The notes under the pieces were generated by a model, which saw only the letters and a list, made by a program, of their open reading frames with translations, did no database searches and was not told where the DNA came from. From Bacteroidota bacterium (GTDB lineage: Bacteria > Bacteroidota > Ignavibacteria > Ignavibacteriales > Ignavibacteriaceae): a stretch of 64,000 nt of DNA. This document shows, piece after piece, positions 23,940 through 39,740 of the stretch. The stretch's first letter is position 1, and every line of letters begins with the position of its first letter. The stretch is from NCBI GenBank assembly GCA_021824145.1, contig JAKALM010000012.1, positions 1 to 64,000 on the forward strand, read 5' to 3'. A program made the position numbers and the translations under genes.

Positions 23940-24950
23940 ATGAAAGTTGATATAAAGAAAGTTGCAGAGAAAGCCGGAGTTTCAATAGCAACAGTGTCAA
24001 GAGTATTCAGTAATAGTGAATTAGTAAAGCAAACAACAAAAGATAAAGTATTAAAAATATCTAAAGATTTAAATTATATCCCTAACCCGATAGCAAGAAG
24101 TTTATCCAGACAACTAACCGATACCATTGGCGTTGTTCTTCCAGACCTTGTAGGCGAGTTTTTTATGGATATAATTCATGGTATAGACGAAGAAGCTTAT
24201 AAGCAGAATTGGTTTGTGCTTGTTTCCAGTTCACACAGCAAAAGAAATATACTAGAGACGTTGATTGAGTTTATGGGAAGTGGAAGAGTAGATGGGGTGA
24301 TATTAATGGCGCCACAGATGGATGAAAGAATAAACGAAATAATAAAAAGAAGCAAACGCCCCGTTGTTTTGATAAATGCCGGAGGAGACACAAATAATAA
24401 TGCAAACTTTAAGATAGACAATTACAAAGGCGCTTACAGTATAGTAGAGCATTTGATAGTGAAGCATAAATATAAAAAGATAGCCATGGTTGAAGGTCCT
24501 AAAGATAACTACGATGCAATAGATAGGTCAAATGGATATCATAAAGCATTACAAAAATATGGATTAAGTAAGAATGAAGCGATGGTAGTGGAGGGAGATT
24601 TCTCGGTAGAAGGTGGTTATCATGGTTTCAAGAAACTGATGAGCCAAAAAGAAAAACCGAATGCAATATTTATGGCAAATGATATGATGGCAGTAGGTGC
24701 TTATCAAGCAGCTAAAGAAATGAAGATTAAAATCCCGGAAAATATAGCTTTGGTCGGGTTCGATGATATTTACTTAAGTCAATTTCTGTATCCAAGGTTG
24801 ACTACAGTTCACGTGCCCATTGCTGAGTTGGGAAGCAAAGCAGTAATCCATTTACTCGGAATGATTAATAATAATAAGAAGAAAAATAAATCTTTTATTG
24901 AAGTACTCCCAACTAGCTTAGTCGTTGGCGAATCTTGTGGATGTAAATAA
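23940..24950 (+). CDS. LacI-family transcriptional regulator
   Basis: This 336-aa protein has an N-terminal helix-turn-helix (DIKKVAEKAGVSIATVSRVF), a hinge helix with NPIARSL, and a periplasmic-binding-protein-like sensor domain (about 60-330) starting TIGVVLPDL. The hinge leucine type is the one that kinks a central CpG, in keeping with the TGTAAACGTTTACA sites. Such sites occur upstream of its own gene and in the divergent region at 12649-12907, and nowhere else noticed in the window. It is therefore likely the local regulator of the glucan locus, released or engaged by an oligosaccharide. The effector is unknown. Confidence 0.9.
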   Translation: MKVDIKKVAEKAGVSIATVSRVFSNSELVKQTTKDKVLKISKDLNYIPNPIARSLSRQLTDTIGVVLPDLVGEFFMDIIHGIDEEAYKQNWFVLVSSSHSKRNILETLIEFMGSGRVDGVILMAPQMDERINEIIKRSKRPVVLINAGGDTNNNANFKIDNYKGAYSIVEHLIVKHKYKKIAMVEGPKDNYDAIDRSNGYHKALQKYGLSKNEAMVVEGDFSVEGGYHGFKKLMSQKEKPNAIFMANDMMAVGAYQAAKEMKIKIPENIALVGFDDIYLSQFLYPRLTTVHVPIAELGSKAVIHLLGMINNNKKKNKSFIEVLPTSLVVGESCGCK

Positions 24951-25036: not shown

Positions 25037-26959
25037 ATGAATAATTTCATACGGTACTTTTTATTTCTAGTACTGTTGGTCCCATTTCTCGATACGGTTT
25101 CTCATGCTCAAATGATTAAAAGGCAAGACGCAGTTTGGGCAAGAGAAACATCTGAACCAATTGTATTAGATGGTAAGCTTACTGAAGCATCTTGGGCTAA
25201 AGCAGATTCTATTCAAATTGTATATGGAGCTAGCTCTGGATTGCCAACAAGCGGATGGAATACAGATGGTTATCCGAATCCAAGTGGATATACTGATACC
25301 CTTCATGCAACATTAAAATTTCTTTCACATAATAACCAGCTTTATATTGCTTTCATAGTTCCTGATGCTTCTATTGGTGGCCACGATTGGCCTGGCCCTG
25401 CTTGGTGGGATGGTGTTCTAATGAATGTAAAAGATGTTCGTACAAGACCAGTAGGAAGAAAAGAAATTTTCCCTTGCTTCTTGTTTACCGATACTTCTTC
25501 TAGCTATACTGGTGGAAGAGGAAAAGGTGCTGGTCCAAGATATGGTTATATGGGCCCATATCAAGATCAGTTAACCGATTCAGCCATTAAAGCTATGGGT
25601 TGGAATATGGGATATACTATCCAAGGTACTTCTAATGACGATAGTACACCAGATACAAGTTACATATTCGAAATGCAGATTAATCTTGATTCATTAGGTT
25701 ACAATACTACACAAACTAACGGCGATGTAGTTGGCACCAATATTCAAATTGTTGATGTGGATTGGTATTGGCAGCCTGACCCTTCAAAAAGAGCTGTTGG
25801 AAAAGCTTGGTGGCAGCATCCTTGGAGTGATCAAGGTGAAAATGCTGGAAGAATTTATATCCGACCAGATGTTACTGTAAACTCTGGGCCTGCACCAACA
25901 ATTCCACCAGATGTTGTTATACCAAATGGTGCTAGTGCAACTGATCCAACAATTGATGGAAATTTAAATGATCCGGTTTGGAACGGAGCTTATTCATTTA
26001 AGATTAAGTATAACGATTTAGCTACTGTTAATACATATTCTGGTCTTGGCAAAAGCATGAGTGCATGGTACGAAGTTAGCACTTCAAATCCACCTTCATC
26101 TACACTTCCACAAGTATTAGATCCTGCAGATGCAACTATTAAAATGTTTTTCAAAGGAAATAATTTGTACTTAGCTGCTAATGTATCAGATCAGTTAATA
26201 GAAGGTGGTGCAACAAATCAAGATCAAAAAGATGGAGTTCGATTTATATTAGGTTTAAGAGATTCTGTAAATTCAGATCACGTTATGCAATTCATGAATC
26301 TTTTAGCAGATTTTGATTCTTTAGGAAATCCAAAAGCAGATGAAGACCTTGATACTCTTGTTAAACAAGGAATCGCTACTTTAGGAATGAAAGTACATGG
26401 AACTGTAAATGATAATACTGATATCGATACTGGTTATACTGTTGAATTAAAAATTGATCTCACCAAACTTGGTTATCCAAATGGTTTGGGCGACCATTTA
26501 TTATTCGGTGGTGTTGATGTACTTGATGCTGATGTTTTCGATAATCCTGCAAATAATTATGGAACTAGAACTTGGTTCTTTAAAGAAAATAAAGATGCTG
26601 GGCCAACTGCATGGATGTATATGGATCCAAATGTTCCTACTGATGTAAAAACAAATACTGTTAATATTGTTCCAACAAGTTTAGTGCTTTATGGAAATTA
26701 TCCTAATCCATTTAATCCTTCAACAAATATTAGTTATTCTATTCCAAAAGAAGGTGAAGTAACAATGTCCATCTATAATATGCTTGGACAATTGGTTTCC
26801 AACGTGAACTTATTACATCAAACAGCTGGAATCCATGTCTATAATTTTAATGCAGCTTCACTTGCATCTGGCGTTTATTTTTATAGGCTATCATTAAAAT
26901 CAAATGAAAACAGTCAGAATTTCTTAAGCAAAACTTCAAAGATGATCTTGTTGAAGTAA
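25037..26959 (+). CDS. T9SS-exported protein with two CBM9-like domains
   Basis: This 640-aa surface or secreted protein has a strong AGGAGG site before the ATG. The signal peptide ends near TVSHAQ. Two tandem beta-sandwich domains of the family 9 carbohydrate-binding/cytochrome-like type follow, at about 30-280 (EPIVLDGKLTEASWAKAD) and 295-535 (DPTIDGNLNDPVWNGAY). A T9SS type A sorting domain follows, with NYPNPFNPST near 554. No catalytic domain is present, so a glycan-binding role at the cell surface is inferred. It lies 86 nt after the lacI-type gene and is closed by a strong terminator at 26971. Confidence 0.82.
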   Translation: MNNFIRYFLFLVLLVPFLDTVSHAQMIKRQDAVWARETSEPIVLDGKLTEASWAKADSIQIVYGASSGLPTSGWNTDGYPNPSGYTDTLHATLKFLSHNNQLYIAFIVPDASIGGHDWPGPAWWDGVLMNVKDVRTRPVGRKEIFPCFLFTDTSSSYTGGRGKGAGPRYGYMGPYQDQLTDSAIKAMGWNMGYTIQGTSNDDSTPDTSYIFEMQINLDSLGYNTTQTNGDVVGTNIQIVDVDWYWQPDPSKRAVGKAWWQHPWSDQGENAGRIYIRPDVTVNSGPAPTIPPDVVIPNGASATDPTIDGNLNDPVWNGAYSFKIKYNDLATVNTYSGLGKSMSAWYEVSTSNPPSSTLPQVLDPADATIKMFFKGNNLYLAANVSDQLIEGGATNQDQKDGVRFILGLRDSVNSDHVMQFMNLLADFDSLGNPKADEDLDTLVKQGIATLGMKVHGTVNDNTDIDTGYTVELKIDLTKLGYPNGLGDHLLFGGVDVLDADVFDNPANNYGTRTWFFKENKDAGPTAWMYMDPNVPTDVKTNTVNIVPTSLVLYGNYPNPFNPSTNISYSIPKEGEVTMSIYNMLGQLVSNVNLLHQTAGIHVYNFNAASLASGVYFYRLSLKSNENSQNFLSKTSKMILLK

Positions 26960-26970
26960 ATATTTATTTA

Positions 26971-27020
26971 ATGAACAGATGGATTGAAAAATATCCGTCT
27001 GTTCATCTTTTTAATTTTTC
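26971..27020 (+). terminator. Strong intrinsic terminator
   Basis: ATGAACAGATGGAT at 26971-26984 pairs with ATCCGTCTGTTCAT at 26993-27006, a 14-bp stem with one G-T pair and an 8-nt loop, followed by CTTTTTAATTTTTC. It ends the lacI-CBM9 unit and separates it from the TonB receptor. Confidence 0.9.
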
Positions 27021-27175: not shown

Positions 27176-29839
27176 ATGTTAAACAAGGAGCATAAAAGAA
27201 AATTCACCTTTTATACTTTTTTTCTAGTCGCTGTTGCAATCATTTTATCTGGATACACTGCCTATGCTCAAACAAGTGGTAAACTTAAAGGAAGAATTGT
27301 CGATCCAAAAGGTGAGCCATTAATTGGCGCTAATATTTTAGTTCAAGGCACTATTACTGGAACAACTAGTGACTTAGATGGTTATTACAACATTTTAAAT
27401 CTAAGAACAGGCACCTATTCGGTTGAATATAGATATGTCGGATTTCAAACAAAAATTGTAAAAAATATAAAAATTATTCCGGATCAAACTACTGAAATAA
27501 ATGTTACTCTTAGTGAAGAGGCAATTCAAAGTCAAACCGTTACTGTGGTTGCACAAAAACCAATAGTAGAGTTTAACCAGACAAGTTCTGTTGTAAATGT
27601 CAGCAAAGAAGATATGCAAAACCTTCCAGTACAAAGCTTAAATGAAATTGTAAATCTTCAAGCTGGTGTAATTGATGGTCACTTTAGAGGCGGAAGAATT
27701 GGAGAAGTTCAATATCAAGTAGATGGAGTTACGGTAAATAATCCGTACGATAATTCATCTACATTACAGCTTGATAAATCTATACTTCAAGAAGTTCAAG
27801 TTATCAGCGGTACATTTGATGCAAAATACGGCGAAGCAATGAGCGGTGTTGTTAATGCTGTGTTAAGAACTGGTACAGAAAATTTCCAATATTCTGGTGA
27901 AATTTATACTGGCGATTATTATACTACCGATGTAACTAGGTATCCTTTTAATAACACTTTCCGCCCTGCGCAAATTCAAAATTATCAATTAACCATAAGT
28001 GGTCCGGCAATTTTAAATAATACAACATTCTTTCTAAGCGGCAGAAGATATTTAAATGATGGTTATCTTTTTGGAATTAGGCGATTTATTCCAACTGATA
28101 CAAGTGATTTTGAAAAAAAGGTTTTTAGGCCAACAGGCGATAATCAACTAGTGCCAATGCAAACTCATCATGAATGGAGTGGACAATTTAAAATAACAAA
28201 TAGAACTTTTCCTAAAATTCAATTGAGCTATGTAGCTATCTTAAATAGTTTTAATGAAACTGCATATAATAATGCGTTCAGGTTTCTTCCGGATGGAATT
28301 CCTACGCAAAAAACTTTTTCTCTAACTCAAGGCTTAGATATTACGCATACTATTAGCGAACAAATGTTTTATAAACTTAATTTCAGGTATAATTATTTTG
28401 ATTATAGCAATTACAAATATCCAGATGTTTATGACCCTAGATATTTACAAGCTGGAGTTCCCAAAAATGATGCGGGATACGAATATGGTGCTAATGTTCA
28501 AGGCGTTGATCTTACCAGATTTATTCAAAAAACTAATGACGGGATTGTTAAACTTGATTATAGCTGGCAAGTTAATAGAGCAAATTTAGTAGAAGCAGGT
28601 TTAGAAGGAGAACTTTCAAAACTTTCTTTCGGCAGCCCAGGCTTCTTAAGCCAAACAAACATAAATGGCGTTGAAGTTCTGCAGCCGCATTACAGCACAG
28701 ATCCAAAAGAACCTCAGGTACAAACTTATTACCCAAGACAAGGTGTAGCTTATTTACAAGATCGTGTTGAACTTGGCGACTTGGTAGTTAGGGGAGGACT
28801 AAGGCTCCAAGTTTTTGATGCCAATGCCTATGTTCCAAGTGATCTGCAAAATCCAGCTAATTCAATAAAAGGATCACCTCTATCGTATCTCAAACGAACA
28901 ACAATTAAATCATCAATAGCTCCTCGTATTGGATTGAGTTTTCCTCTTACTTCAACGGCTTCCATTTATTTTTCATACGGTCATTTTTATCAAATGCCTG
29001 GGTTGGGAGATTTGTATAATAATTCTAATTATCTCGTTCTCGATCAATTACAAGCTGGCGGAATTGATTACGGAGTTCTTGGCAACCCGGATTTGAAACC
29101 TCAATTTACAGTTCAATATGAAGTTGGATTAAAGCAAGCATTAACGGAAAATTTAGGTGCACAGTTAACTTTTTTCAGTAAAGATATTCGAGATCTTTTG
29201 GGAACTGAATTCGTCAGCACTTATTCAGCAGCTCAGTATGCAAGATTGACTAATGTTGATTTTGGAAATGTATATGGAATTACTCTTTCTTTAGATCAAC
29301 GCAGTATTGGGCCTATTAGTGCAAGTTTGGATTACACTTTACAATTTGCAAATGGAAACTCAAGTGATCCCAGAGAAACAGCAAACAGAGCTGCTGCCGG
29401 GCAAGATCCACGCCCTCGCGATCTTCCATTTAATTGGGATCAAAGGCATACATTAAATTTGCAGGTTATTTACTTCTTACCTGAACAGCTTTCAATAAGT
29501 GCAATTGTAAAATATGGAAGCGGCGAGCCTTACACTCCGCAAATAGGTCCAGCAAGTTTTACTGCAAATCTTGAAACAAACTCTGGAAGAAAACCAAGTT
29601 ATATTTTAGTAGATCTTCGTGCTGAAAAATTTTTCAAATTAGGTTTTCTTGAATTTAGTGTATTTGCAAGAGTATTCAATTTATTTAATCAGGATTTGGT
29701 AAATGGTTTTGTATTTGCAGGCACTGGCAGTCCTGATTATTCACTAACACCTGTTCAAGATATGGCTACATTGTTAGATCCTTCTAGGTTCTATCAACCA
29801 AGAAGAATTGAAATAGGAATTTCATTTAATTCTAAATAG
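27176..29839 (+). CDS. TonB-dependent outer-membrane receptor with CarboxypepD-like domain
   Basis: This 887-aa outer-membrane receptor has a signal peptide ending in YTAYAQ and a SusC-like N-terminal carboxypeptidase-regulatory domain (about 35-118, GRIVDPKGEPLIGANIL). A plug domain follows (about 125-235, with YQVDGVTVNNPYDN and DAKYGEAMSGVVNAVLRTG), then a 22-strand-type barrel to the C-terminal strand RIEIGISFNSK. It probably imports glycan fragments across the outer membrane with energy from TonB. No SusD-family gene is adjacent; instead a large T9SS-type surface protein and a PorV/PorQ protein follow, closely spaced, which may form its functional partners. Confidence 0.88.
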   Translation: MLNKEHKRKFTFYTFFLVAVAIILSGYTAYAQTSGKLKGRIVDPKGEPLIGANILVQGTITGTTSDLDGYYNILNLRTGTYSVEYRYVGFQTKIVKNIKIIPDQTTEINVTLSEEAIQSQTVTVVAQKPIVEFNQTSSVVNVSKEDMQNLPVQSLNEIVNLQAGVIDGHFRGGRIGEVQYQVDGVTVNNPYDNSSTLQLDKSILQEVQVISGTFDAKYGEAMSGVVNAVLRTGTENFQYSGEIYTGDYYTTDVTRYPFNNTFRPAQIQNYQLTISGPAILNNTTFFLSGRRYLNDGYLFGIRRFIPTDTSDFEKKVFRPTGDNQLVPMQTHHEWSGQFKITNRTFPKIQLSYVAILNSFNETAYNNAFRFLPDGIPTQKTFSLTQGLDITHTISEQMFYKLNFRYNYFDYSNYKYPDVYDPRYLQAGVPKNDAGYEYGANVQGVDLTRFIQKTNDGIVKLDYSWQVNRANLVEAGLEGELSKLSFGSPGFLSQTNINGVEVLQPHYSTDPKEPQVQTYYPRQGVAYLQDRVELGDLVVRGGLRLQVFDANAYVPSDLQNPANSIKGSPLSYLKRTTIKSSIAPRIGLSFPLTSTASIYFSYGHFYQMPGLGDLYNNSNYLVLDQLQAGGIDYGVLGNPDLKPQFTVQYEVGLKQALTENLGAQLTFFSKDIRDLLGTEFVSTYSAAQYARLTNVDFGNVYGITLSLDQRSIGPISASLDYTLQFANGNSSDPRETANRAAAGQDPRPRDLPFNWDQRHTLNLQVIYFLPEQLSISAIVKYGSGEPYTPQIGPASFTANLETNSGRKPSYILVDLRAEKFFKLGFLEFSVFARVFNLFNQDLVNGFVFAGTGSPDYSLTPVQDMATLLDPSRFYQPRRIEIGISFNSK

Positions 29840-29874
29840 AAATATGTTTATCAAAATTTAAACTAGTGATTCAA

Positions 29875-32800
29875 ATGAAAAAGTTGATACAATTAGAATT
29901 AATTTCACTCGCATTTTTATTATTTTTTTCAAGAATTTCATTCGCACAACTGATGCCTGTGGTTCCCGATTCTCTTAGAGGAACATCCGATGCTGAACGT
30001 GCAGGAACTCTTGATGCAAACAATATTAGAACAATATTTTATAATTATGGTATGGTAGGAGATTATCCCCCTGATCCTATAAATGTTGATGTAAGCGTTT
30101 TTCATTCTGTCGAGGTTCCAAAAGGTTCTGGTCAGAATAACAGTGACGGTTATACTCCATATGTACTTGCAAAGATTAATCAGTTGAATGGAACTCCTGG
30201 TTATATTATGGAAACCGGTTACAGAGAGAGGCAAGGGCAAAGTCCATTTCATATAAATAGAGTTATGAGGTATGAACCAAGGCCGCCTTACAATTGGGGT
30301 GGAAAATGGGTCGGTTATTTTCAGCCTAACCCTGATATAAATAAAGGTAGATCGCCTGCTATTAGTAATGATCCTCGTACTTGGCCAGATTATTGGATTG
30401 ATAAAATGGATGATCCGGTTGACCCTGGATGGCCTGGTTCGTGGGATGGATATTTTGGAAAAGCTCAAGTTGCAGATGAAGAAACTTATTATGTATATGA
30501 TGATCAATATTATGATGCTTGGGATTTTTATCCTGACAGCAGAGATCATACAAGAAAAGGGCTTGGACTTAGAGTTGAGCAAAGAAATTTTCAATGGTCA
30601 AATATTCAAGCCGAAAATGTAATCTTTTCTCACTACGATATTTCTAATGAAAGTACAACTGATTATTATGAAAATATAATTTTCGGAATTTATAATGATA
30701 CAGGCGTTGGCGGTGAAGGTTTTGCTCCAAATGGAATTATTCCAAACGATGATAACAATGCTTTTTATACAAAGGATGTTGGAATAAACATTGTGTATAA
30801 TTGGGAAAATCATGGTATCGGTATGCGAGGGCCAACAGGATATTTAGGTTATTCATATTTAGAAACACCTGGTAATCAGTTTGATGGGATTGATAATGAT
30901 AATGATGGAATAACTGATGAAAGCAGGCACAGCGGTCCGGGTGAAAAAATTGTTGGGCAAATAAATATAATGAACTACCTTAAAAGTCACCCTGAAAAAT
31001 ATAATATAGCAAAGTTTGAAAATTTCTATGGGCCTATTGAAAATAGACCAGCATATAAAGAAGGAGTTTGGTGGACAGGTGATGAAGACATGGATTGGGT
31101 AGCTAGATATTGTGATACAGGCGCTGATGGTGTTTTCGGTACAAATGATGTTGGTGAAGGTGATGGTATCCCAACTGAAGGCGAACCAAATTTTGATATT
31201 ACTGATATTGATGAATCTGATATGATTGGTTTAACTGGTTTTAAATTTAATCGAATTAGAGCTGGAGATGGTATTGGCCCTGTTGATAATTTAGTATTTT
31301 TTGATGACGGTCATCATTGGCCAGAAAGGCTTTACTCGTTTTTTACGGCTCCCGATTCTGGCTTCGATAACCCTCTTGTTCAGAATTATAACATAGCATT
31401 TTTATTTGCTTCTGGTCCATTTATATTACCAGCGGGAGATAGAGAAAGATTTAGTTTAGCATTAGGATGGGGAGCTAATTTACGAGAGCTTGAAACAACA
31501 ATACGAGTTGTAGCACAAATCTATAAAGGAAACTATAAGTTTGCTGTTCCTCCTCCATTGCCAACTGTGCATGCTTTTGCAGGAGATAAATATGTAACAT
31601 TAACATGGGACAATGTTGCGGAACAAGCAATAAACCCGATTACAGGAACTGACGATTTTGAAGGATATAAAGTTTACCGCAGTACCGATCCAACCTTTCT
31701 CGATCCGAAAGTTATAACAACGGCAACTGGCTCTGGCCCTATAGGCAATGGCAAACCAATTGCGCAATTTGATTTAAAGGATGGCGTGGCTGGATTTTCT
31801 AATTTCACTGTTGAAGGTGTTGCTTATTATTTAGGTGATGATACCGGTTTATCTCACACATTTACAGACACAACTGTTACCAATGGCCAAACTTATTATT
31901 ATGCTGTAACGGCTTATAATACCGGCTTAGATTCACTTGGCGTTTATCCTTCTGAAAATCCAATTTCAGTTAGTCAAACTCTTCGAGGCGGAACTATTCT
32001 TGCTAAGAATGTGGTTTCAGTTGTTCCTAATGCACTTTCACTTGGATTTAAACCAGCTCAAGCCTTACAATTGCAGCATAACCAAGGAACCGGAGTTGGA
32101 AATGTAAACATTCAGATTTTGAATTCGAGTCTAGTTCCGGATAATCACACATTTAAAATCCTTTTTTCAAATCTTTTAGATTCAGTAAGAGCTAATTATT
32201 ATTCCTTAGTTGATGTTACAACCAGCGATACTTTATTTAAATATGGATATGATTTGTCTGGCCAAGGAATTGGCCCAGTTGCAGATGGATTGCTGCCTGT
32301 TATTTCTACACCTAGCACTATTTCGATTGATTCAGCTAATACTGGATTTACATCATCAAGTAAAACAAATTTAAAATTAAATGCAGTATACGCACCATCA
32401 TTTCCTATTACTTTGCATAGGCCAGGTTTCCCTGATAATATTCAAATAATTTTTGGCAACCAGGTAATGGATACTTCAGTAGTTGCAATTGGAATGCCTT
32501 CTCAACGTGTGAAGTTTAAGGTGATAGCAAAAGATCCTGCTGGTGATTTTAAATTGAAATTCCGCTTTAGAAATGTTGACCAGTCTGGTACAATCACTGG
32601 TAAATCTGATTTTATCGAAATTCTTACATCTAGTTATGAAGCACCAACTAAATTTCTTCCAACTTGGGATATTCAAGTTGATACTGTTGCTACTGTTGGT
32701 ACAATACAACCGCCGACAGATGGTGATGTTTACAATTTGAATGTTCAAGTACCATATTCAAATAGCGATGCATTTACATTTACCACATCTCAGCAAACAA

Positions 32801-33135
32801 TTGATCAGCAGTTAGCAAAGCAGCAGTTCAAGGAACCATATGTTGTTCCTAATCCTTACATTGGGCAGGCAAGCTTTGAACCGCAAAGGTTTGCTGTATC
32901 CGGCAGAGGTGAAAGAAGAATTGAGTTTAGAGGATTGCCTGAAAGTTGTGTAATTCGAATTTATACTGTTACCGGTGATTTAGTTCAGACTATTAACCAC
33001 AATGGCTTGCAAGGATTTGAACCATGGGATTTACGCTCAAGAGATAATTTATCTGTAGCTCCAGGTCTTTATATATATCATGTAGATTCGCCTGGAATAG
33101 GTACCTACATTGGAAAATTTGCAATAGTAAAATAA
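29875..33135 (+). CDS. Large T9SS-type surface protein with fibronectin III domain
   Basis: The predicted protein is 1086 aa from the ATG at 29875, which begins the signal peptide (MKKLIQLELISLAFLLFFS...SFAQ); GTG at 29866 is less likely. The first 500 residues are Trp/Tyr/Asp-rich and unassigned, with calcium-loop-like segments (DGIDNDNDGITDES, then GADGVFGTNDVGEGDG). A fibronectin III domain covers about 562-695. The C-terminus from about 989 (VVPNPYIG... to YIGKFAIVK) is a variant T9SS sorting domain. It lies between the TonB receptor (35 nt) and the PorV/PorQ gene (18 nt). A SusD-like capture role is a guess from position only. Confidence 0.75.
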   Translation: MKKLIQLELISLAFLLFFSRISFAQLMPVVPDSLRGTSDAERAGTLDANNIRTIFYNYGMVGDYPPDPINVDVSVFHSVEVPKGSGQNNSDGYTPYVLAKINQLNGTPGYIMETGYRERQGQSPFHINRVMRYEPRPPYNWGGKWVGYFQPNPDINKGRSPAISNDPRTWPDYWIDKMDDPVDPGWPGSWDGYFGKAQVADEETYYVYDDQYYDAWDFYPDSRDHTRKGLGLRVEQRNFQWSNIQAENVIFSHYDISNESTTDYYENIIFGIYNDTGVGGEGFAPNGIIPNDDNNAFYTKDVGINIVYNWENHGIGMRGPTGYLGYSYLETPGNQFDGIDNDNDGITDESRHSGPGEKIVGQINIMNYLKSHPEKYNIAKFENFYGPIENRPAYKEGVWWTGDEDMDWVARYCDTGADGVFGTNDVGEGDGIPTEGEPNFDITDIDESDMIGLTGFKFNRIRAGDGIGPVDNLVFFDDGHHWPERLYSFFTAPDSGFDNPLVQNYNIAFLFASGPFILPAGDRERFSLALGWGANLRELETTIRVVAQIYKGNYKFAVPPPLPTVHAFAGDKYVTLTWDNVAEQAINPITGTDDFEGYKVYRSTDPTFLDPKVITTATGSGPIGNGKPIAQFDLKDGVAGFSNFTVEGVAYYLGDDTGLSHTFTDTTVTNGQTYYYAVTAYNTGLDSLGVYPSENPISVSQTLRGGTILAKNVVSVVPNALSLGFKPAQALQLQHNQGTGVGNVNIQILNSSLVPDNHTFKILFSNLLDSVRANYYSLVDVTTSDTLFKYGYDLSGQGIGPVADGLLPVISTPSTISIDSANTGFTSSSKTNLKLNAVYAPSFPITLHRPGFPDNIQIIFGNQVMDTSVVAIGMPSQRVKFKVIAKDPAGDFKLKFRFRNVDQSGTITGKSDFIEILTSSYEAPTKFLPTWDIQVDTVATVGTIQPPTDGDVYNLNVQVPYSNSDAFTFTTSQQTIDQQLAKQQFKEPYVVPNPYIGQASFEPQRFAVSGRGERRIEFRGLPESCVIRIYTVTGDLVQTINHNGLQGFEPWDLRSRDNLSVAPGLYIYHVDSPGIGTYIGKFAIVK

Positions 33136-33153
33136 ACTTATCGGTATTTAAAT

Positions 33154-34182
33154 ATGAAAAAAATTTTTACTTATAATAATGCCTTTTTAATTATATCAGC
33201 TATTCTCGTTATTCAGATTTCAGTTAATGCACAAAGTAAAGTTGGAACTACCATTGCACAATTTCTGAAAATTGATCAAAGTTCAAGAACTTCTGCAATG
33301 GGTAACGCCGGTACTGCTCTATACGGTGAAGTCTCTGCAATGTATTATAATCCGGCAAGTATGGGAAGATTAACTGAAACTGATGCTCAGTTTACTTATA
33401 CAGAATGGCTTGCTGGTATTACATTTAATTATGCTGCTGTTGGAATAAAGGTTGAAAATATAGGAACTTTTGCATTACAAGCAACTTCAATGAATTCTGG
33501 TGACATTGCTGTAAGGACTGTTGATCAGCCTTTAGGTACTGGAGAATATTATACTGTTCAAGATTTTGCTTTGGGCCTTGGTTACGGTTTAATGCTCACA
33601 GATCGAGTCTCAGTAGGTTTTGTGGTAAATTATATTTCAGAATCAATCTGGCATGATAATTTGACTGACTTTGGAATTAATCTTGGCGTTCAGTATCAAG
33701 TTGAACCTGGCGGTCTTACCATAGGTGCAAGCTTATTGAATTTTGGGCCGCGGGCTAATTACACAGGCAGAGATTTATACATCGATTATAACCAAGACCC
33801 AACTAAGCATGGCGGTAACGACCAGTTGCCGGGCGAATTAAGAACCGATATGTTTCCGCTGCCCACTTTATTTAGAATTGGTGTGTCTTATCCATATAAA
33901 TTTGATGAGAATAATAAACTTACTCTCTCAGTCGATGCTCTTCATCCTAACGACAATAATGAAAGCATGAATATTGGTGGAGAGCTTACTTTGATGAAAA
34001 ATTTTTCATTAAGAGGAGGATATCGCGATTTATTTTTGCCTAATTCGGAAGGTGGACTAGAGCTCGGTGCTGGAGTAAATTATTCATTCGCTGAAGGCTA
34101 TACACTGCGCTTTGATTATGCGTGGGCTGATTATGGGCGCTTACTTAAAATTAATAGGTTCACTGTTAGCGTTGGTTTTTAA
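33154..34182 (+). CDS. PorV/PorQ-family outer-membrane protein
   Basis: This 342-aa outer-membrane barrel of the FadL superfamily has a signal peptide ending in VNAQ, then the PorV/PorQ opening with SSRTSAMGNAGTALYGEVSA and MYYNPASMG. The body alternates beta strands, and the protein ends in FTVSVGF. In T9SS organisms PorV shuttles or anchors cargo with sorting domains at the outer membrane, though many paralogues exist. Here it follows a sorting-domain protein by 18 nt, so a dedicated role in exporting or holding that protein is plausible. It might also be a plain porin. Confidence 0.8.
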   Translation: MKKIFTYNNAFLIISAILVIQISVNAQSKVGTTIAQFLKIDQSSRTSAMGNAGTALYGEVSAMYYNPASMGRLTETDAQFTYTEWLAGITFNYAAVGIKVENIGTFALQATSMNSGDIAVRTVDQPLGTGEYYTVQDFALGLGYGLMLTDRVSVGFVVNYISESIWHDNLTDFGINLGVQYQVEPGGLTIGASLLNFGPRANYTGRDLYIDYNQDPTKHGGNDQLPGELRTDMFPLPTLFRIGVSYPYKFDENNKLTLSVDALHPNDNNESMNIGGELTLMKNFSLRGGYRDLFLPNSEGGLELGAGVNYSFAEGYTLRFDYAWADYGRLLKINRFTVSVGF

Positions 34183-34264: not shown

Positions 34265-35653
34265 ATGTTTAAAAAAAACTTAATTGTTCTTTTGAGCATT
34301 CTTACTTTTGCAGCAGGTGCTTTTTGTCAGAGCAAAATTGGTGATAAAAATTTATATAAAAATTATAAGCTTACAGAAAAAGAATCTACATTTCTAGATA
34401 CACTTGAATACAGAACTTTTCTTTATTTTATCAGCGAGTCGAACCGTGAAAACGGATTAGTTAAGGACCGCTCAACAAAAGATTCACCGGCAAGTATTGC
34501 CGCAGTCGGATTCGCGTTGCCTGCTTATGCTGTTGGTGCAGAGCATGGTTGGATTTCTAGAGAGGAAGCTGCTGAAAGAACATTAAATACTTTAAATTTT
34601 TTCTTGAATAGCAAACAAAGTTCCGATGCCGTTTCAACTGGTTACAAAGGTTTTTATTATCACTTCCTCGACATGAAAAATGGTTTGCGTTTCTGGAACT
34701 GCGAACTTTCTTCTATAGATACAGGTTTGCTCTTAGCGGGAATAATATTTTCTCGGCAGTATTTCTACAAAAATTCTAAAATAGAAAAAGAGATTCGGGA
34801 GAAAGCCACAGAGATTCTGAAAAGAGTTGATTGGAAATTTTTCACTTTGCCTAGAGATAGCAAATTCCCTTACGATATTGCTATGGGTTGGGAACCTGAG
34901 CACGGCATGTCTCCAGACGGTTGGAAAGGTTACAATGAAGCACAAATTATGTTTGTAATAGCCGCTGGTTCCGGAATGAAGAATGCAAGTAAAGGTTACG
35001 AAACCTGGACAAGAACTTTTGAATGGCAAGAGCCTTACAAAGGTTTGGCGCACGTTGTTTTTCCGCCGCTGTTCGGCCATCAGTTTACAAATTTGTTTGT
35101 TGATCTAAGAGGAATAGTAGACAGCTACATGCGGACAAAAGGAATTGACTATTTTGAAAATTCGAAACGAGCAACGTTAACACAAAGATTGTACGCTATT
35201 GAAAATCCTCACGGGTGGAAAGGTTACGATTCTTTGAATTGGGGAATAAGCGCTTGCGATGGACCTGGAGAGAGCTTTAATTTTGACGATAAGAAATTTA
35301 TTGGTTATGCAGGCAGAGGAACTTCCGGTCCACAGTACAATTATTTTGACGACGGAACAATTGCACCGTACGCTGCTGGAAGTTCAATTGTATTCGCTCC
35401 GGATGCTGTAATTCCTACTCTAATGAATTTTTATGATAAGCACAAAGACAAAGGGATATGGGGTGAGTATGGTTTTGTGGATGCCTTTAACTTAACTGCT
35501 AATTGGTTTGATAAAGACGATCTTGGGATTGACGAAGGTCCGTTGGTTTTAATGCTGGAAAATTTCAGGTCTGGATTGATCTGGAAATATATGATGCGCG
35601 ATCCGGTCATCAAAAAAGGATTAAATGTTTTAGGATTCAGAAAGGTGAAATGA
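34265..35653 (+). CDS. GH144/PF10091-family glucanase, periplasmic
   Basis: This 462-aa protein has a signal peptide (ending GAFCQ) and a single PF10091 catalytic domain with YRTFLYFISES, TGYKGFYYHFLDM, SSIDTGLLLAG and WGISACDGPG. It belongs to a different branch from the enzyme at 18627, with no fibronectin or sorting domain, so it most likely acts in the periplasm. Characterised GH144 relatives cut beta-1,2-glucan; an exo- or oligosaccharide-acting enzyme is possible here. AGGA precedes the ATG. Its stop overlaps the GH3 start (ATGA), showing coupled translation. Confidence 0.83.
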   Translation: MFKKNLIVLLSILTFAAGAFCQSKIGDKNLYKNYKLTEKESTFLDTLEYRTFLYFISESNRENGLVKDRSTKDSPASIAAVGFALPAYAVGAEHGWISREEAAERTLNTLNFFLNSKQSSDAVSTGYKGFYYHFLDMKNGLRFWNCELSSIDTGLLLAGIIFSRQYFYKNSKIEKEIREKATEILKRVDWKFFTLPRDSKFPYDIAMGWEPEHGMSPDGWKGYNEAQIMFVIAAGSGMKNASKGYETWTRTFEWQEPYKGLAHVVFPPLFGHQFTNLFVDLRGIVDSYMRTKGIDYFENSKRATLTQRLYAIENPHGWKGYDSLNWGISACDGPGESFNFDDKKFIGYAGRGTSGPQYNYFDDGTIAPYAAGSSIVFAPDAVIPTLMNFYDKHKDKGIWGEYGFVDAFNLTANWFDKDDLGIDEGPLVLMLENFRSGLIWKYMMRDPVIKKGLNVLGFRKVK

Positions 35654-37878
35654 TGCGGTTTAAAATTTTTTTCTTCACTCTTTTAATAATTAGTTTTTTT
35701 TCATTTCAGAATTATTCTCAGCAGAATTCATACTTAAAAAAAGATCCGGTCATCGAGAAGAAAGTTGACCTTCTTCTTTCTAAAATGACTTTGGAAGAAA
35801 AGATTGGACAGCTTGTTAGAAAAACCGAAATCAATTCCGAAACTGGAAAAATGATCAGAGAAGGCAAATTCGGAATAATGGGAAATCCGGGACGTCAGAT
35901 AAGAGACAGTTTGCAAAAAATTGCCGTCGAGCAATCGCGTCTTCATATTCCATTAGCATTTGCCGCGGATGTAATTCACGGATATCATACTATCTTTCCA
36001 GTTCCGCTTGCACAGTCATGTAGTTGGGACCCCGAGCTTGCTGAGAAAGCTGCAAGGATAGCTGCGCTTGAAGCTTCTTCAGATGGTTTAAACTGGACGT
36101 TTGCTCCAATGGTTGATATTGCTCGCGATCCGCGGTGGGGAAGAATTGTAGAAGGCGCTGGCGAGGATCCTTACCTTGGAAGTATAATGGCAGCGGCGTA
36201 TGTAAAAGGCTATCAAGGAAAATCTTTAAGCGATGAAGGATCAATTTCTGCAACGGCAAAACACTATGTGGCTTACGGCGCGGCTCAAGCGGGAAGAGAT
36301 TATAACACAGTTGATATTTCTGCAAGAACGCTGCGCGAAATTTATCTTCCGCCTTTCCACGCAGCGGTTAATGCTGGTACAGGATCGATCATGAGTGCAT
36401 TCAACGATTTGAATGGTGTACCTGCATCTGGAAATTATTTTACTTTAACAAAAATTTTAAGAGATGAGTGGAAATTTAAAGGTGTAGTAATCAGCGATTA
36501 TAATTCCATCGGCGAACTTGTTAATCACGGAGTTGCGAAAAATAAATCCGATGCCGCGCGTGTTGGAATAACTGCCGGTGTGGATGTTGATCTTGCTGGC
36601 GATACAATTACGGGAGATATTTACGCGCCATATCTTGAAAACTTAGTTGAGAACCGCATCGTACCAGAAAAACTAATTGACCGCTCAGTGCGGAGAGTTC
36701 TGAGATTAAAATATGAACTTGGATTGTTCGATCATCCTTATGTTGATACCGCTTTCTTCAGAAAAGATTTGCCATCGCAGGAAGATAGAAATAAAATTGC
36801 ACAGCAGCTTGCGGACGAATCAATTGTACTTTTGAAGAACGAAAAAAATGTTCTTCCGTTGAAAAAAGACATTCATTCAATTGCTTTAATAGGTCCACTC
36901 GCGAATGATCAGGATGATCTGATTGGTCCGTGGGCGCCGGATGGAATTTCTAAAAATGTTGTAACGGTTCTTGAAGGAATAAAAAATAAAATTTCTCCAA
37001 AGACAAAAATAAATTACGTGAAAGGCTGCGACTTCCTCGATTCAAGCAGTGCAGAATTTGATGAAGCTGTAAACGCTGCAAAAGAATCAGACGTTGCTGT
37101 TTTGGTCGTCGGCGAATCACGCGACATGAGCGGAGAGGCTTCCAGCCGTGCTTTTATTGATGTCCCCGGCATTCAAGAAGAACTTATAAAAGAAATTTAT
37201 AAAACTGGAAAACCGGTGGTTGTAGTTTTAATGAATGGCAGACCATTAACAATTAATTGGGAGTCTGAAAATGTGCCGGCGATTTTAGAAACGTGGTTTT
37301 TAGGTAATCAAACTGGGAATGCTATTGCTGATGTTTTATTCGGAGATTACAATCCATCGGGTAAATTAACCGCAACTTTTCCACGAGCAGTTGGACAGAT
37401 TCCAATTTTTTATAATCACATGAACACCGGCAGGCCTCCTTCGCCAACAGATCATTACACTTCCAAATATCTCGATTGTCCGGTTACTCCGCTATATCCT
37501 TTCGGATATGGATTGAGTTACGCAAATTTTTCTTATTCAGATTTAACAATCGATAAAAAAAATATTTCTGAAAATGATTCTTCGATTGCTTCTATAAAAG
37601 TTACAAACAATAGCAGTATTGGTGGAACTGAAATCGTTCAGTTGTACACCCATGATCATTTCGCAGATGTAACTCCACCAGTAAAAGAGCTTAAGGGATT
37701 TAAGAGAATTTATTTGCAGCCCGGCGAATCAAAAATCGTTAAGTTTGTGATCAAACCAGAGATGCTTGCACAGTACAATATTGATATGAAGAAAGTTATT
37801 GAGCCTGGAATTTATGATGTAATGATCGGAAGAAATTCGGATGATTATTTGAAAACATCTTTTGAACTTAAAAAATAA
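35650..37878 (+). CDS. bglX: GH3 beta-glucosidase, periplasmic
   Basis: This 742-aa retaining beta-glucosidase has the BglX layout: signal peptide, (beta/alpha)8 domain, alpha/beta sandwich and a C-terminal fibronectin III-like domain (about 640-740). The nucleophile is probably Asp283 in VVISDYNSIG, with Glu496 in MSGEASSRAF as likely acid/base. KHYVAYGAAQAGRDYN is the usual substrate loop. It would release glucose from the ends of beta-glucan oligosaccharides in the periplasm. Its start overlaps the GH144-type gene, and the parvulin gene follows after 2 nt. Linkage preference is not readable; beta-1,2 is inferred from context. Confidence 0.9.
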   Translation: MMRFKIFFFTLLIISFFSFQNYSQQNSYLKKDPVIEKKVDLLLSKMTLEEKIGQLVRKTEINSETGKMIREGKFGIMGNPGRQIRDSLQKIAVEQSRLHIPLAFAADVIHGYHTIFPVPLAQSCSWDPELAEKAARIAALEASSDGLNWTFAPMVDIARDPRWGRIVEGAGEDPYLGSIMAAAYVKGYQGKSLSDEGSISATAKHYVAYGAAQAGRDYNTVDISARTLREIYLPPFHAAVNAGTGSIMSAFNDLNGVPASGNYFTLTKILRDEWKFKGVVISDYNSIGELVNHGVAKNKSDAARVGITAGVDVDLAGDTITGDIYAPYLENLVENRIVPEKLIDRSVRRVLRLKYELGLFDHPYVDTAFFRKDLPSQEDRNKIAQQLADESIVLLKNEKNVLPLKKDIHSIALIGPLANDQDDLIGPWAPDGISKNVVTVLEGIKNKISPKTKINYVKGCDFLDSSSAEFDEAVNAAKESDVAVLVVGESRDMSGEASSRAFIDVPGIQEELIKEIYKTGKPVVVVLMNGRPLTINWESENVPAILETWFLGNQTGNAIADVLFGDYNPSGKLTATFPRAVGQIPIFYNHMNTGRPPSPTDHYTSKYLDCPVTPLYPFGYGLSYANFSYSDLTIDKKNISENDSSIASIKVTNNSSIGGTEIVQLYTHDHFADVTPPVKELKGFKRIYLQPGESKIVKFVIKPEMLAQYNIDMKKVIEPGIYDVMIGRNSDDYLKTSFELKK

Positions 37879-37880
37879 TT

Positions 37881-39740
37881 ATGAAGTTTTTGCTTGCTAT
37901 TATATTATTTCTAATTATATCATTTACGCTTCTTTGTCAAACGAAAAATATTTCTGGCAGCGACGATGTTGTAGCAAAAGCAGGCGACATTAAAATATCG
38001 GCGAGAGAATTCCGTGAACGGTTTGATTTCAGTCCCCACCCGCGCACCACGGAATCGCTTGATACTGCGCTGGTTAAAAAGGAATACCTTTATACTTTAC
38101 TCGCCGAAAAACTTCTTGCGCAAAAAGCAAAAGAGTTAAAACTGGATACAACTCAATTTATTCAAAACATGCTGACTTATATGGGTAGACTTTTTGTTAG
38201 AGATGCTTTGTACAAAAAAGAAATCTCGAGCAAAGTTAAAGTAACAAAAAAAGAAATTTCCGAAGCAAAAGAAAGAATGAAGAAACTTCTAGTGACGAAG
38301 TATTTATATTCGACGGATATTAATGAAATTCAGAGATTATATGCAGATCTTAATAATGGAATACCGATCGATTCATTAATTGCCGTAAGGCCCGAAGCCG
38401 AAGAACAAAAAACTCCCGGTACAATAACCTTCGGTACTCTTGATGAAAATGTTGAAGATGCCGTTTATAGTTTGAAAGTTGGACAGTTTACCAAACCTAT
38501 TTATACTGGCAACCGTTGGTACATTTTTCAGTTGGAAAAAATTATTGATCAGCCTTACTTCAATACTCCTGATAATTTGATTAAGATTAAGCAGACAATT
38601 GAAAAAAGACAAGCTGCAGCTTTGGAAGATGATTATCTAAATAATTTCCTGCAGCAATTTCAAATTAGCGTTGACCGGGCGCTGTTTACAAAGATATTAA
38701 TACAGATGCATAAGTACCTTCATGAAAGACAAGAAAGTTATAAGAAAAATGACAAACCGAAGTATTATTATTTAGTCAAAGAAGATTTTAGCCGAATTGA
38801 AGATTCGCTTGGTGCCGAAGTATTAAGAGCAAATTTTATTAAGTACAAAAAGAATCCAGAATCCGTTAAACAATTTTTAGATCAGTTAAAGATAAACGGT
38901 TTTAGAGTTGATACAACTGATTACCAAACTGTTGCACGGGCTTTCAATAATTATGTAAAGAATTATCTTGAAAGCGAATTGCTGGCGCGTGAAGGTTTGC
39001 GGCAAAATCTGGATAAAGAATCTTCAGTGAGAAATGATCTGAGCCTTTGGGAAGATTATTATCTTTCACAGCGATTGATAAAACAAATTCAAGACTCAAT
39101 TAAAATAAGCGATGCAGAGGCTTATGAATTCTATTCAAAAAATCATAAAATAATGTTTCCGCAGGAAAGATTTAACGTGCAGGAAATTCTTGTTGACAGC
39201 TTGGAGACAATTCAAAAAGCCCTTGATGATTTAAATAAACATGTGGCTTTTGAAACTGTTTCAGAAAAATATTCCATACTTGATTCCCTGCGTGAGCGAG
39301 GCGGCAATCTTGGATATTTACCGCCGACTCAATCGGGAACTATCGGAGAGATTAAGAAGATCGTCAAGAATATGAAAGTTGGAGAAGTTTACGGTCCGAT
39401 TAAGCTTAGCGATGGTTTTGCTTTGTTGAAACTAGTCGATATTCAAAATGCTGAAGACAGCAAAGACACTTCTTTCGCTCAAATTAAAGATGAGTTGAAA
39501 GATGTTATAAGAAATATTGAATTTGAGAAAAAACTAAAATCTTACGTTGCTAATCTCGCACTTAAATACGGTGTTGAAATTAATAAAAACGTTTATGTTT
39601 CTATTCCGGTTTTTCAATTCAATACCGTGACTATAAGACTAATTGGCTTCGGCGGAAGAATTTATGCCTTTCCTTACGAGCCCTTGTTTGCAGGTTGGTA
39701 TAGCTTATATTTGCAAAAGAAATCTCAACTTCCTCAGTAA
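37881..39740 (+). CDS. SurA/PpiC-like periplasmic peptidyl-prolyl isomerase
   Basis: This 619-aa exported chaperone or isomerase has a signal peptide ending in LLCQ and a SurA-type N-terminal helical region (GDIKISAREFRERFDF). A first parvulin-like segment lies near 150-230 and a second clearer parvulin domain at about 424-520 (FNVQEILVDS, RGGNLGYLPP, VGEVYGPIKL). It starts 2 nt after the GH3 gene and so shares its transcript. It may help fold the outer-membrane barrels and large exported proteins of this locus. A general envelope role is equally possible. Confidence 0.83.
   Translation: MKFLLAIILFLIISFTLLCQTKNISGSDDVVAKAGDIKISAREFRERFDFSPHPRTTESLDTALVKKEYLYTLLAEKLLAQKAKELKLDTTQFIQNMLTYMGRLFVRDALYKKEISSKVKVTKKEISEAKERMKKLLVTKYLYSTDINEIQRLYADLNNGIPIDSLIAVRPEAEEQKTPGTITFGTLDENVEDAVYSLKVGQFTKPIYTGNRWYIFQLEKIIDQPYFNTPDNLIKIKQTIEKRQAAALEDDYLNNFLQQFQISVDRALFTKILIQMHKYLHERQESYKKNDKPKYYYLVKEDFSRIEDSLGAEVLRANFIKYKKNPESVKQFLDQLKINGFRVDTTDYQTVARAFNNYVKNYLESELLAREGLRQNLDKESSVRNDLSLWEDYYLSQRLIKQIQDSIKISDAEAYEFYSKNHKIMFPQERFNVQEILVDSLETIQKALDDLNKHVAFETVSEKYSILDSLRERGGNLGYLPPTQSGTIGEIKKIVKNMKVGEVYGPIKLSDGFALLKLVDIQNAEDSKDTSFAQIKDELKDVIRNIEFEKKLKSYVANLALKYGVEINKNVYVSIPVFQFNTVTIRLIGFGGRIYAFPYEPLFAGWYSLYLQKKSQLPQ

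Follow-up and report, generated by a model that had tools for sequence, protein, structure and literature searches.

The window, the stretch of 64,000 nucleotides analysed here (positions 1-64,000 of contig JAKALM010000012.1, assembly GCA_021824145.1, 3.48 Mb in 37 contigs), comes from a Bacteroidota bacterium of the Ignavibacteriaceae. It contains a module of three genes, hereafter called the triad, which encodes a TonB-dependent receptor, a middle protein (MID) of the type IX secretion system (T9SS) type and a barrel of the PorV/PorQ family. The genes, and the regions recognised within MID, are as follows.

27176..29839, + strand: TonB-dependent receptor, 887 amino acids, with CarboxypepD_reg, plug and barrel domains (Pfam; PF00593 at 114.7 bits)
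29875..33135, + strand: MID, T9SS-type surface protein, 1086 amino acids from the ATG
29962..31554, + strand: predicted beta-supersandwich, MID residues about 30-560 (AlphaFold2 model and VIA-align)
30883..30921, + strand: calcium-loop-like motif DGIDNDNDGITDE, MID residues 337-349
31567..31983, + strand: fibronectin III (Fn3)-like region, MID residues about 565-703 (strands of the model; Foldseek fibronectin matches)
32842..33132, + strand: PorZ-like long C-terminal sorting domain (CTD) of about 97 residues, ending in GKFAIVK
33154..34182, + strand: dedicated PorV/PorQ-family barrel, 342 amino acids, 14 predicted barrel strands (NF033709)

An alternative GTG start at 29866 would give a MID of 1089 amino acids (29866-33135). 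The three-gene order, the coordinates and the strand, described earlier from the letters of the DNA (the sequence-only reading), hold up against the sequence, junctions included, as do the gaps of 35 nt between receptor and MID (from the ATG at 29875) and 18 nt between MID and barrel.

The arrangement is more general than could be known from this one locus. Among the 80 GTDB loci examined, the best of at least 507 confirmed, a receptor is found upstream of MID within 420 nt in 73 and a barrel downstream in 78; the nine misses are all at contig ends, and in the seven loci lacking the receptor at most 124 nt of contig remain beyond the MID match. The triad was also present in all 30 loci from a search of the phylum (one from the window's own genome and three repeating loci of the 80), and in all of 18 further loci from 17 genomes, which were picked by us from the lower part of the listed phylum matches and repeat none of the other sets. 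Since the triad is present in every examined locus that is uncut by a contig end, including the frame-broken L112, it is more than a chance arrangement, and the co-occurrence in other genomes on which the sequence-only reading was to stand or fall is borne out. In L112 (L112:5164-8277), from a metagenome-assembled genome (MAG) of the Melioribacteraceae, MID is split into two frames, flanked by receptor and barrel, which is either an assembly error or a decaying gene. The GTDB loci listed are mostly from MAGs and represent Bacteroidetes, Ignavibacteriae, Melioribacteraceae, Rhodothermaceae, Balneolaceae and Calditrichota, together with KSB1, Gemmatimonadetes, Eisenbacteria, WOR-3 and Neomarinimicrobiota.

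The genome from which the window derives has five triads, that of the window and four with full-length paralogues of MID, each with a related receptor upstream and a related barrel downstream (L036-L039). Three more of its loci (L040, L041 and L042, on contigs C36, C32 and C6) have modules of a receptor, a T9SS protein and a PorV-family protein, in which the middle protein is of 675-718 amino acids and shares mainly the CTD with MID. No Pfam ectodomain was found in these shorter proteins, and a TIG-domain companion occurs in L040 and L041. The order is that of the triad in L040 and L042, with the barrel first in L041 and a looser version of the module in L043; other ectodomains may be anchored in the same way. 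Beside the triad of L037 and a sensor-like protein of 1005 amino acids there are two adjacent proteins of 212 amino acids (L037:13273-13911 and L037:14192-14830), response-regulator-like by eye and with near-identical starts and ends, which look like a recent tandem duplication. SprA and PorU are both encoded in this genome, and PorU is followed by a PorV-family gene (L044), presumably the general PorV, which is far from the triad barrels in the tree. Of 11 triad genomes, this one included, PorU was matched in all and SprA in ten (nine above the cut-off); there was no SprA match in the WOR-3 record G301 (1.2 Mb), and that in G302 was below the cut-off.

The receptor had been labelled SusC-like in the sequence-only reading. 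It is a TonB-dependent receptor with the three expected domains, but the SusC label fits it only in part, the score with the SusC/RagA model TIGR04056 being 76.5 bits, under the cut-off of 368.25, with residues 36-159 as the best stretch. The assignment of the receptor also drew on a set of 25 receptors. No SusC above this cut-off was found anywhere in the genome, and PF07980, the only SusD model searched genome-wide, had no match there. That SusD is not found next to the receptor, as had been stated, is therefore upheld; its place is taken by MID, for which Pfam gave nothing at E 0.1. The window MID has no lipobox, and a lipobox-like motif was present in two of 73 full-length MIDs. The SusD fold is based on tetratricopeptide repeats; SusD was not among the VIA-align matches of the MID model, which by itself excludes nothing. 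In 296 genomes of the phylum, with at most two candidates scored per genome, MID was matched at 1e-10 in 145, of which 108 had a strong match (best E up to 1e-90) and 37 a weaker one (1e-10 to 1e-28). Strong MID and SusD were both present in 57 genomes, MID only in 51, SusD only in 101 and neither in 87. In the order to which the window belongs, MID was found in all 28 genomes sampled and SusD (PF07980) in four, leaving 24 without PF07980, and among 91 genomes having at least five SusD matches strong MID was present in ten.

When the MID profile was compared with sequences of solved structures, the best matches were at just E 0.11-0.42. The AlphaFold2 model, made from a 78-sequence alignment, is mainly beta, with a mean local confidence (pLDDT) of 86.7 and a predicted template modelling score (pTM) of 0.73. 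In VIA-align comparisons its supersandwich matched dextran dextrinase 9ju0 (Z 19.5, 261 residues, 3.1 Å), glucodextranase 1ug9 (Z 19.1), the Cgs protein 8rf9 (Z 18.4), glycoside hydrolase (GH) family GH116 (Z 17.4), laminaribiose phosphorylase 6ggy (Z 17.4) and 1,2-beta-oligoglucan phosphorylase 5h3z (Z 15.1), and was also likened to GH94 and GH149 enzymes. Cgs is the maker of cyclic beta-1,2-glucan. The term supersandwich for the matching domain follows the Pfam GH94 entry. Supersandwich enzymes have a helical catalytic (alpha/alpha)6 barrel following this domain. No such barrel is seen in the MID model, in which the residues beyond about 560 are predicted to be almost all beta, and the possibility that MID is an active glycosidase or phosphorylase was put aside because the model lacks it. 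The N-terminal half of MID, left unassigned by the sequence-only reading, is predicted to be a carbohydrate-enzyme supersandwich without a catalytic domain, and this fold, if correctly modelled, speaks for carbohydrate binding, although a shared fold is no proof of it. The calcium-loop-like segment reported earlier corresponds to DGIDNDNDGITDE, in which D340, D348 and E349 are invariant in the 78-sequence alignment, and calcium may be bound there. The fibronectin III domain reported for the region that follows is backed by the fold model and otherwise by weak matches (by sequence, to 3mpc at only E 0.32).

The variant sorting domain suspected at the C-terminus of MID is matched by the PorZ profile at 1.4e-5 when the final 120 residues are searched. 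With NF052228 (PorZ, cut-off 260), whole MID scored 17.7 bits and the CTD alone 23.8 bits, the match being confined to the CTD; the window MID has no match to TIGR04183 (type A CTD, cut-off 23). Residues 722-1086 of the model aligned with PorZ 5m11, chain 680-776, at Z 11.0 (VIA-align; 91 residues, 2.4 Å, 23% identity), a span which by the boundaries in PMC11285876 is the PorZ CTD region. The CTDs of CBM9 proteins near triads, referred to as cargo, served as the control, with 58 of 78 usable MIDs and 52 of 53 cargo proteins entering the comparison. The PorZ profile matched 53 of the 58 MID CTDs and 7 of the 52 cargo CTDs, whereas TIGR04183 matched 26 (at E 0.01) and all 52, respectively. The distance from the PNP motif to the C-terminus was 95-99 residues in all 58 MIDs and 78-85 in 51 of the 52 cargo proteins, with 98 in the remaining one. 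Methionine as the fifth residue from the end (a KMxLxK-like tail) was found in all 53 cargo tails and in no MID of the 80 loci; MID tails are mostly GKFAxxK-like, both there and in the 18 further loci. In the CTD tree, those of MID and of the short modules cluster away from cargo and PorU. The CTD of MID is thus long and PorZ-like, a class otherwise seen in uncleaved CTDs, unlike that of the adjoining cargo. Published CTD lengths, measured otherwise than from PNP to the end, are given in PMC11285876 as 67-88 residues for cleaved CTDs and as 96 and 108 for the uncleaved CTDs of PorZ and PorU. PorZ is described as retaining its CTD (PMC5121618), and anchoring of PorU and PorZ by PorV and PorQ has been proposed (PMC5562754). 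Both length and profile would be consistent with MID being a T9SS protein of this retained-CTD (PorU/PorZ) type.

The assignment of the third gene to the PorV/PorQ family was confirmed with NF033709 (197 bits, cut-off 90), which also matched all 73 aligned barrels at E 0.001; scores with the equivalog models NF033710 (69.4 bits, cut-off 250) and NF033711 (87.4 bits, cut-off 220) were under the cut-offs. The closest solved folds are T9SS PorV (8gl6_F, Z 34.5; 6h3i_F, Z 34.0), ahead of FadL (Z at most 30.8) and of 9n2d_B, a barrel in the BAM complex of Flavobacterium that is presumably BamG (Z 26.6). A BamG profile matched 37 of the 73 triad barrels and TIGR03519 just five, weakly. UPF0164 (PF03687) was matched at five places in the genome, the window barrel not being among them. 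In the tree of PorV-family barrels those of the triads are not cleanly grouped, the support of deep nodes being 0.3-0.85 and L043, L045b and L047 falling among them. Since the barrel is encoded in the same frame as the sorting domain of MID, only one TAA intervening, the two were modelled as a single chain of 461 residues, from the window together with 26 loci that are in frame and 17 unpaired ones (pLDDT 86.9, pTM 0.85). For an unplaced CTD we estimated a pTM near 0.69, and a contact is predicted because the value obtained is higher; the CTD is placed on the barrel with some confidence. Of the contacts within the triad implied by the sequence-only reading, it is this interface that was checked and that gained support.

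Joint evolution of the three genes was assessed from pairwise distances in 64 of 85 triads (the 80 loci, the window and the four others of its genome), cut loci and L112 being dropped. The correlations were 0.956 for receptor and MID, 0.898 for MID and barrel and 0.932 for receptor and barrel, compared with a maximum of 0.169 in 500 shuffles per pair. Neighbouring genes were taken as a further control, since shuffles leave shared ancestry in place: for GH94, GH144, GH3 and LacI the correlations with the triad genes were 0.47-0.72, compared with 0.895-0.984 among the triad genes of these loci, and for SSF they were 0.68-0.81, compared with 0.77-0.95. The window MID is 58-63% identical to MIDs of KSB1 and Calditrichota and 33-39% identical to the paralogues in its own genome. 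The nearest relatives of its receptor and barrel are the same, suggesting that the three genes move or duplicate together.

The triad lies among genes and sequence features related to carbohydrate use, all on the + strand.

23940..24950, + strand: LacI-type regulator (Pfam)
25037..26959, + strand: CBM9 protein with an ordinary type A CTD (KMILLK end)
26971..27006, + strand: hairpin in the CBM9-receptor intergenic region, with 14-nt arms and an 8-nt loop, followed by T-rich sequence; terminator-like
34265..35653, + strand: PF10091 (GH144-type) protein, a relative of endo-beta-1,2-glucanase (Pfam; 5gzh)
35650..37878, + strand: GH3 glycosidase (Pfam)

Because the hairpin resembles a terminator, the triad may be under its own promoter. 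A SurA-like peptidyl-prolyl isomerase is encoded within the sugar operon (37881-39740); the window apart, 6 of the 80 loci have a homologue close to the triad. The PF10091 protein matched 5gzh at E 8.6e-40, XCC2207 (8xul) being closer (8.4e-102). In the 80 loci the neighbour clusters, named after one representative each, were GH94 (30), GH3 (24), GH144-type PF10091 (24), SSF (22), GH2 (20), LacI (17) and two clusters of GH16 (11 and 7); since short contigs are frequent, these counts are lower bounds. In 51 of the 80 loci a CBM9-T9SS protein is encoded close to the triad, mostly just upstream, and it is perhaps a fourth partner. When 13 neighbour families were counted by clade for 78 MID sequences, window included, the window's clade (26 MIDs) had GH144 in 16 and GH94 in 15, with neither SSF nor GH16, and clade 5 (14 MIDs) had GH94 in 13 and GH144 in 9. 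Clade 4 (29 MIDs) had SSF in 21, GH3 in 18 and the two GH16 clusters in 10 and 7, with neither GH94 nor GH144, while clade 3 (3 loci) had only LacI, a sugar-binding protein and an ABC permease. These clade-wise neighbours and the kinship of the PF10091 protein to 5gzh suggest beta-1,2-glucan as the candidate substrate at the window locus and, for clade 4, a glucan resembling laminarin.

The three proteins of the triad probably form a complex for the uptake of beta-glucans at the outer membrane: MID, exported by the T9SS, would act as capture protein or lid, and a PorV/PorQ-like barrel of its own would anchor it. The receptor would be the TonB-driven pore for glucan import. MID would be exported via Sec and then the T9SS, and the barrel would extract it from SprA as a shuttle. 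The CTD, uncleaved, would stay on the barrel beside the receptor, so that the barrel becomes a permanent anchor, as proposed for PorQ and PorZ, and the supersandwich would capture glycan on the surface at or over the receptor. The substrate at the window locus would probably be beta-1,2-gluco-oligosaccharides. The unit itself, the sorting class, the carbohydrate-related fold and the context are well supported. Gene order, joint evolution, CTD class and carbohydrate context were observed, and the fold classes and CTD-barrel docking are predictions of the models; export and retention of MID, its contact with the receptor, glycan binding, transport and the exact substrate are inferred. The interpretation given in the sequence-only reading is supported in part: glycan uptake is backed by the clade-wise neighbours (GH144, GH94, GH3, GH16, CBM9, LacI and sugar transporters) and by the supersandwich, and MID may be either a lid or a separate capture protein. 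Several results weigh against the uptake complex. The presences of strong MID and SusD across the phylum are independent (Fisher p 0.90, 296 genomes), so MID does not simply replace SusD, and a substitution by simple mutual exclusion was rejected. The PorU profile matches MID CTDs (40 of 58) and cargo CTDs (41 of 52) alike, and was discarded as a sign of a retained CTD. The pTM argument for docking is indirect. In the 21 SSF-linked loci the MID-barrel correlation (0.77) is no higher than those of SSF with receptor (0.78) or barrel (0.81), and for the CBM9-T9SS neighbour the correlations with the triad genes are 0.84-0.92, almost as tight as those of the triad genes with each other, so that more than three genes may belong to the unit and the distance comparison is weakened as proof of exactly three members. 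The glycan context is not universal either, none of the 13 counted families being found in the three clade-2 loci and L086.

Three other explanations were weighed. MID could be a surface glycan-binding protein held on its own barrel without acting as a lid, raising the local glycan concentration in the manner of the surface glycan-binding proteins known from SusCD loci, while the receptor works alone. Neither the supersandwich nor the CTD-barrel pairing needs a receptor contact, and the barrel and plug of the receptor are complete; this is nevertheless unlikely, as the link of receptor to MID in order and distance (0.956) is as tight as that of the barrel (0.898). It is less probable still that the barrel is a mere shuttle, which takes MID from SprA to PorU for cleavage and attachment to lipopolysaccharide and leaves no lasting three-part complex. 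PorV is described as a shuttle (PMC5562754) and PorU is encoded in the genome, but the CTD of MID is of the long PorZ-like class, unlike the cargo beside it, and a dedicated barrel for each MID would be needless for shuttling, since the gene after PorU (L044) presumably serves general cargo. A role in assembly or surface maturation, with PorZ-like sugar delivery or a BamG/BamH-like function and the glycan genes as a side effect of location, we regard as very improbable. The PorZ-like CTD, the BamG matches of the barrels and the few loci without counted glycan neighbours would fit it, whereas the clade-wise split between GH144/GH94 and GH16/GH3/SSF, the LacI and sugar-transporter genes nearby and the several copies per genome argue against it.

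Should the uptake complex be real, glycan import would be explained in bacteria without SusD, such as the present one and the 24 of 28 genomes of its order lacking PF07980, and a large group of bacteria would probably have in the triad an alternative to the SusC/SusD pump. It would also give a role to the additional PorV/PorQ barrels that these genomes encode and make the T9SS an assembly route for nutrient importers, besides enzymes and adhesins; many family-less proteins could be named by this route, with substrate guesses by clade. A wider proposal, held tentatively and at somewhat under even chances, is that such modules form a separate, FCB-wide class of TonB-dependent glycan importer made of receptor, side barrel and lid, the lid being a catalysis-free supersandwich delivered by the T9SS and the side barrel a member of the FadL family. 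It would be the main importer where SusCD is absent, and would parallel BamA-BamG-BamH and SprA-PorV-substrate.

No description of the triad was found among the matches listed in searches of one open-access library, and it resembles several known systems in part. As in SusCD, a receptor and an adjacent surface partner lie in glycan loci with a regulator and glycosidases, in several paralogous sets per genome; the triad differs in that its receptor is under the SusC cut-off and that MID does not match SusD, is predicted to fold as a supersandwich, carries a T9SS CTD, has a lipobox-like motif only rarely and comes with its own barrel. With PorZ-PorQ and PorU-PorV of the T9SS attachment complex it would share a T9SS-exported protein with a long uncleaved CTD and a PorV/PorQ barrel as anchor, features published for P. 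gingivalis (PMC5562754, PMC5121618), but the triad has one such pair per receptor, lies in sugar loci and lacks the PorZ propellers and the PorU protease. Type B CTD proteins and PorP/SprF barrels likewise occur side by side as surface protein and FadL-family barrel, the barrel being shuttle or anchor (PMC12618676, PMC9143113), whereas the triad CTD is type A-like (PorZ-like) and its barrel of the PorV/PorQ family, with few TIGR03519 matches. The vitamin B12 system BtuB-BtuG, as described in PMC10404256, indicates that a lid unlike SusD can work with a TonB receptor; that lid, BtuG, is a lipoprotein with a propeller fold, and there is neither a T9SS CTD nor a second barrel. In BamA-BamG-BamH of Flavobacterium (PMC12611786) an extracellular partner is likewise anchored by a FadL-like barrel at the side of a large one, but that partner, BamH, is a lipoprotein, and the task of the complex is to build outer-membrane proteins.

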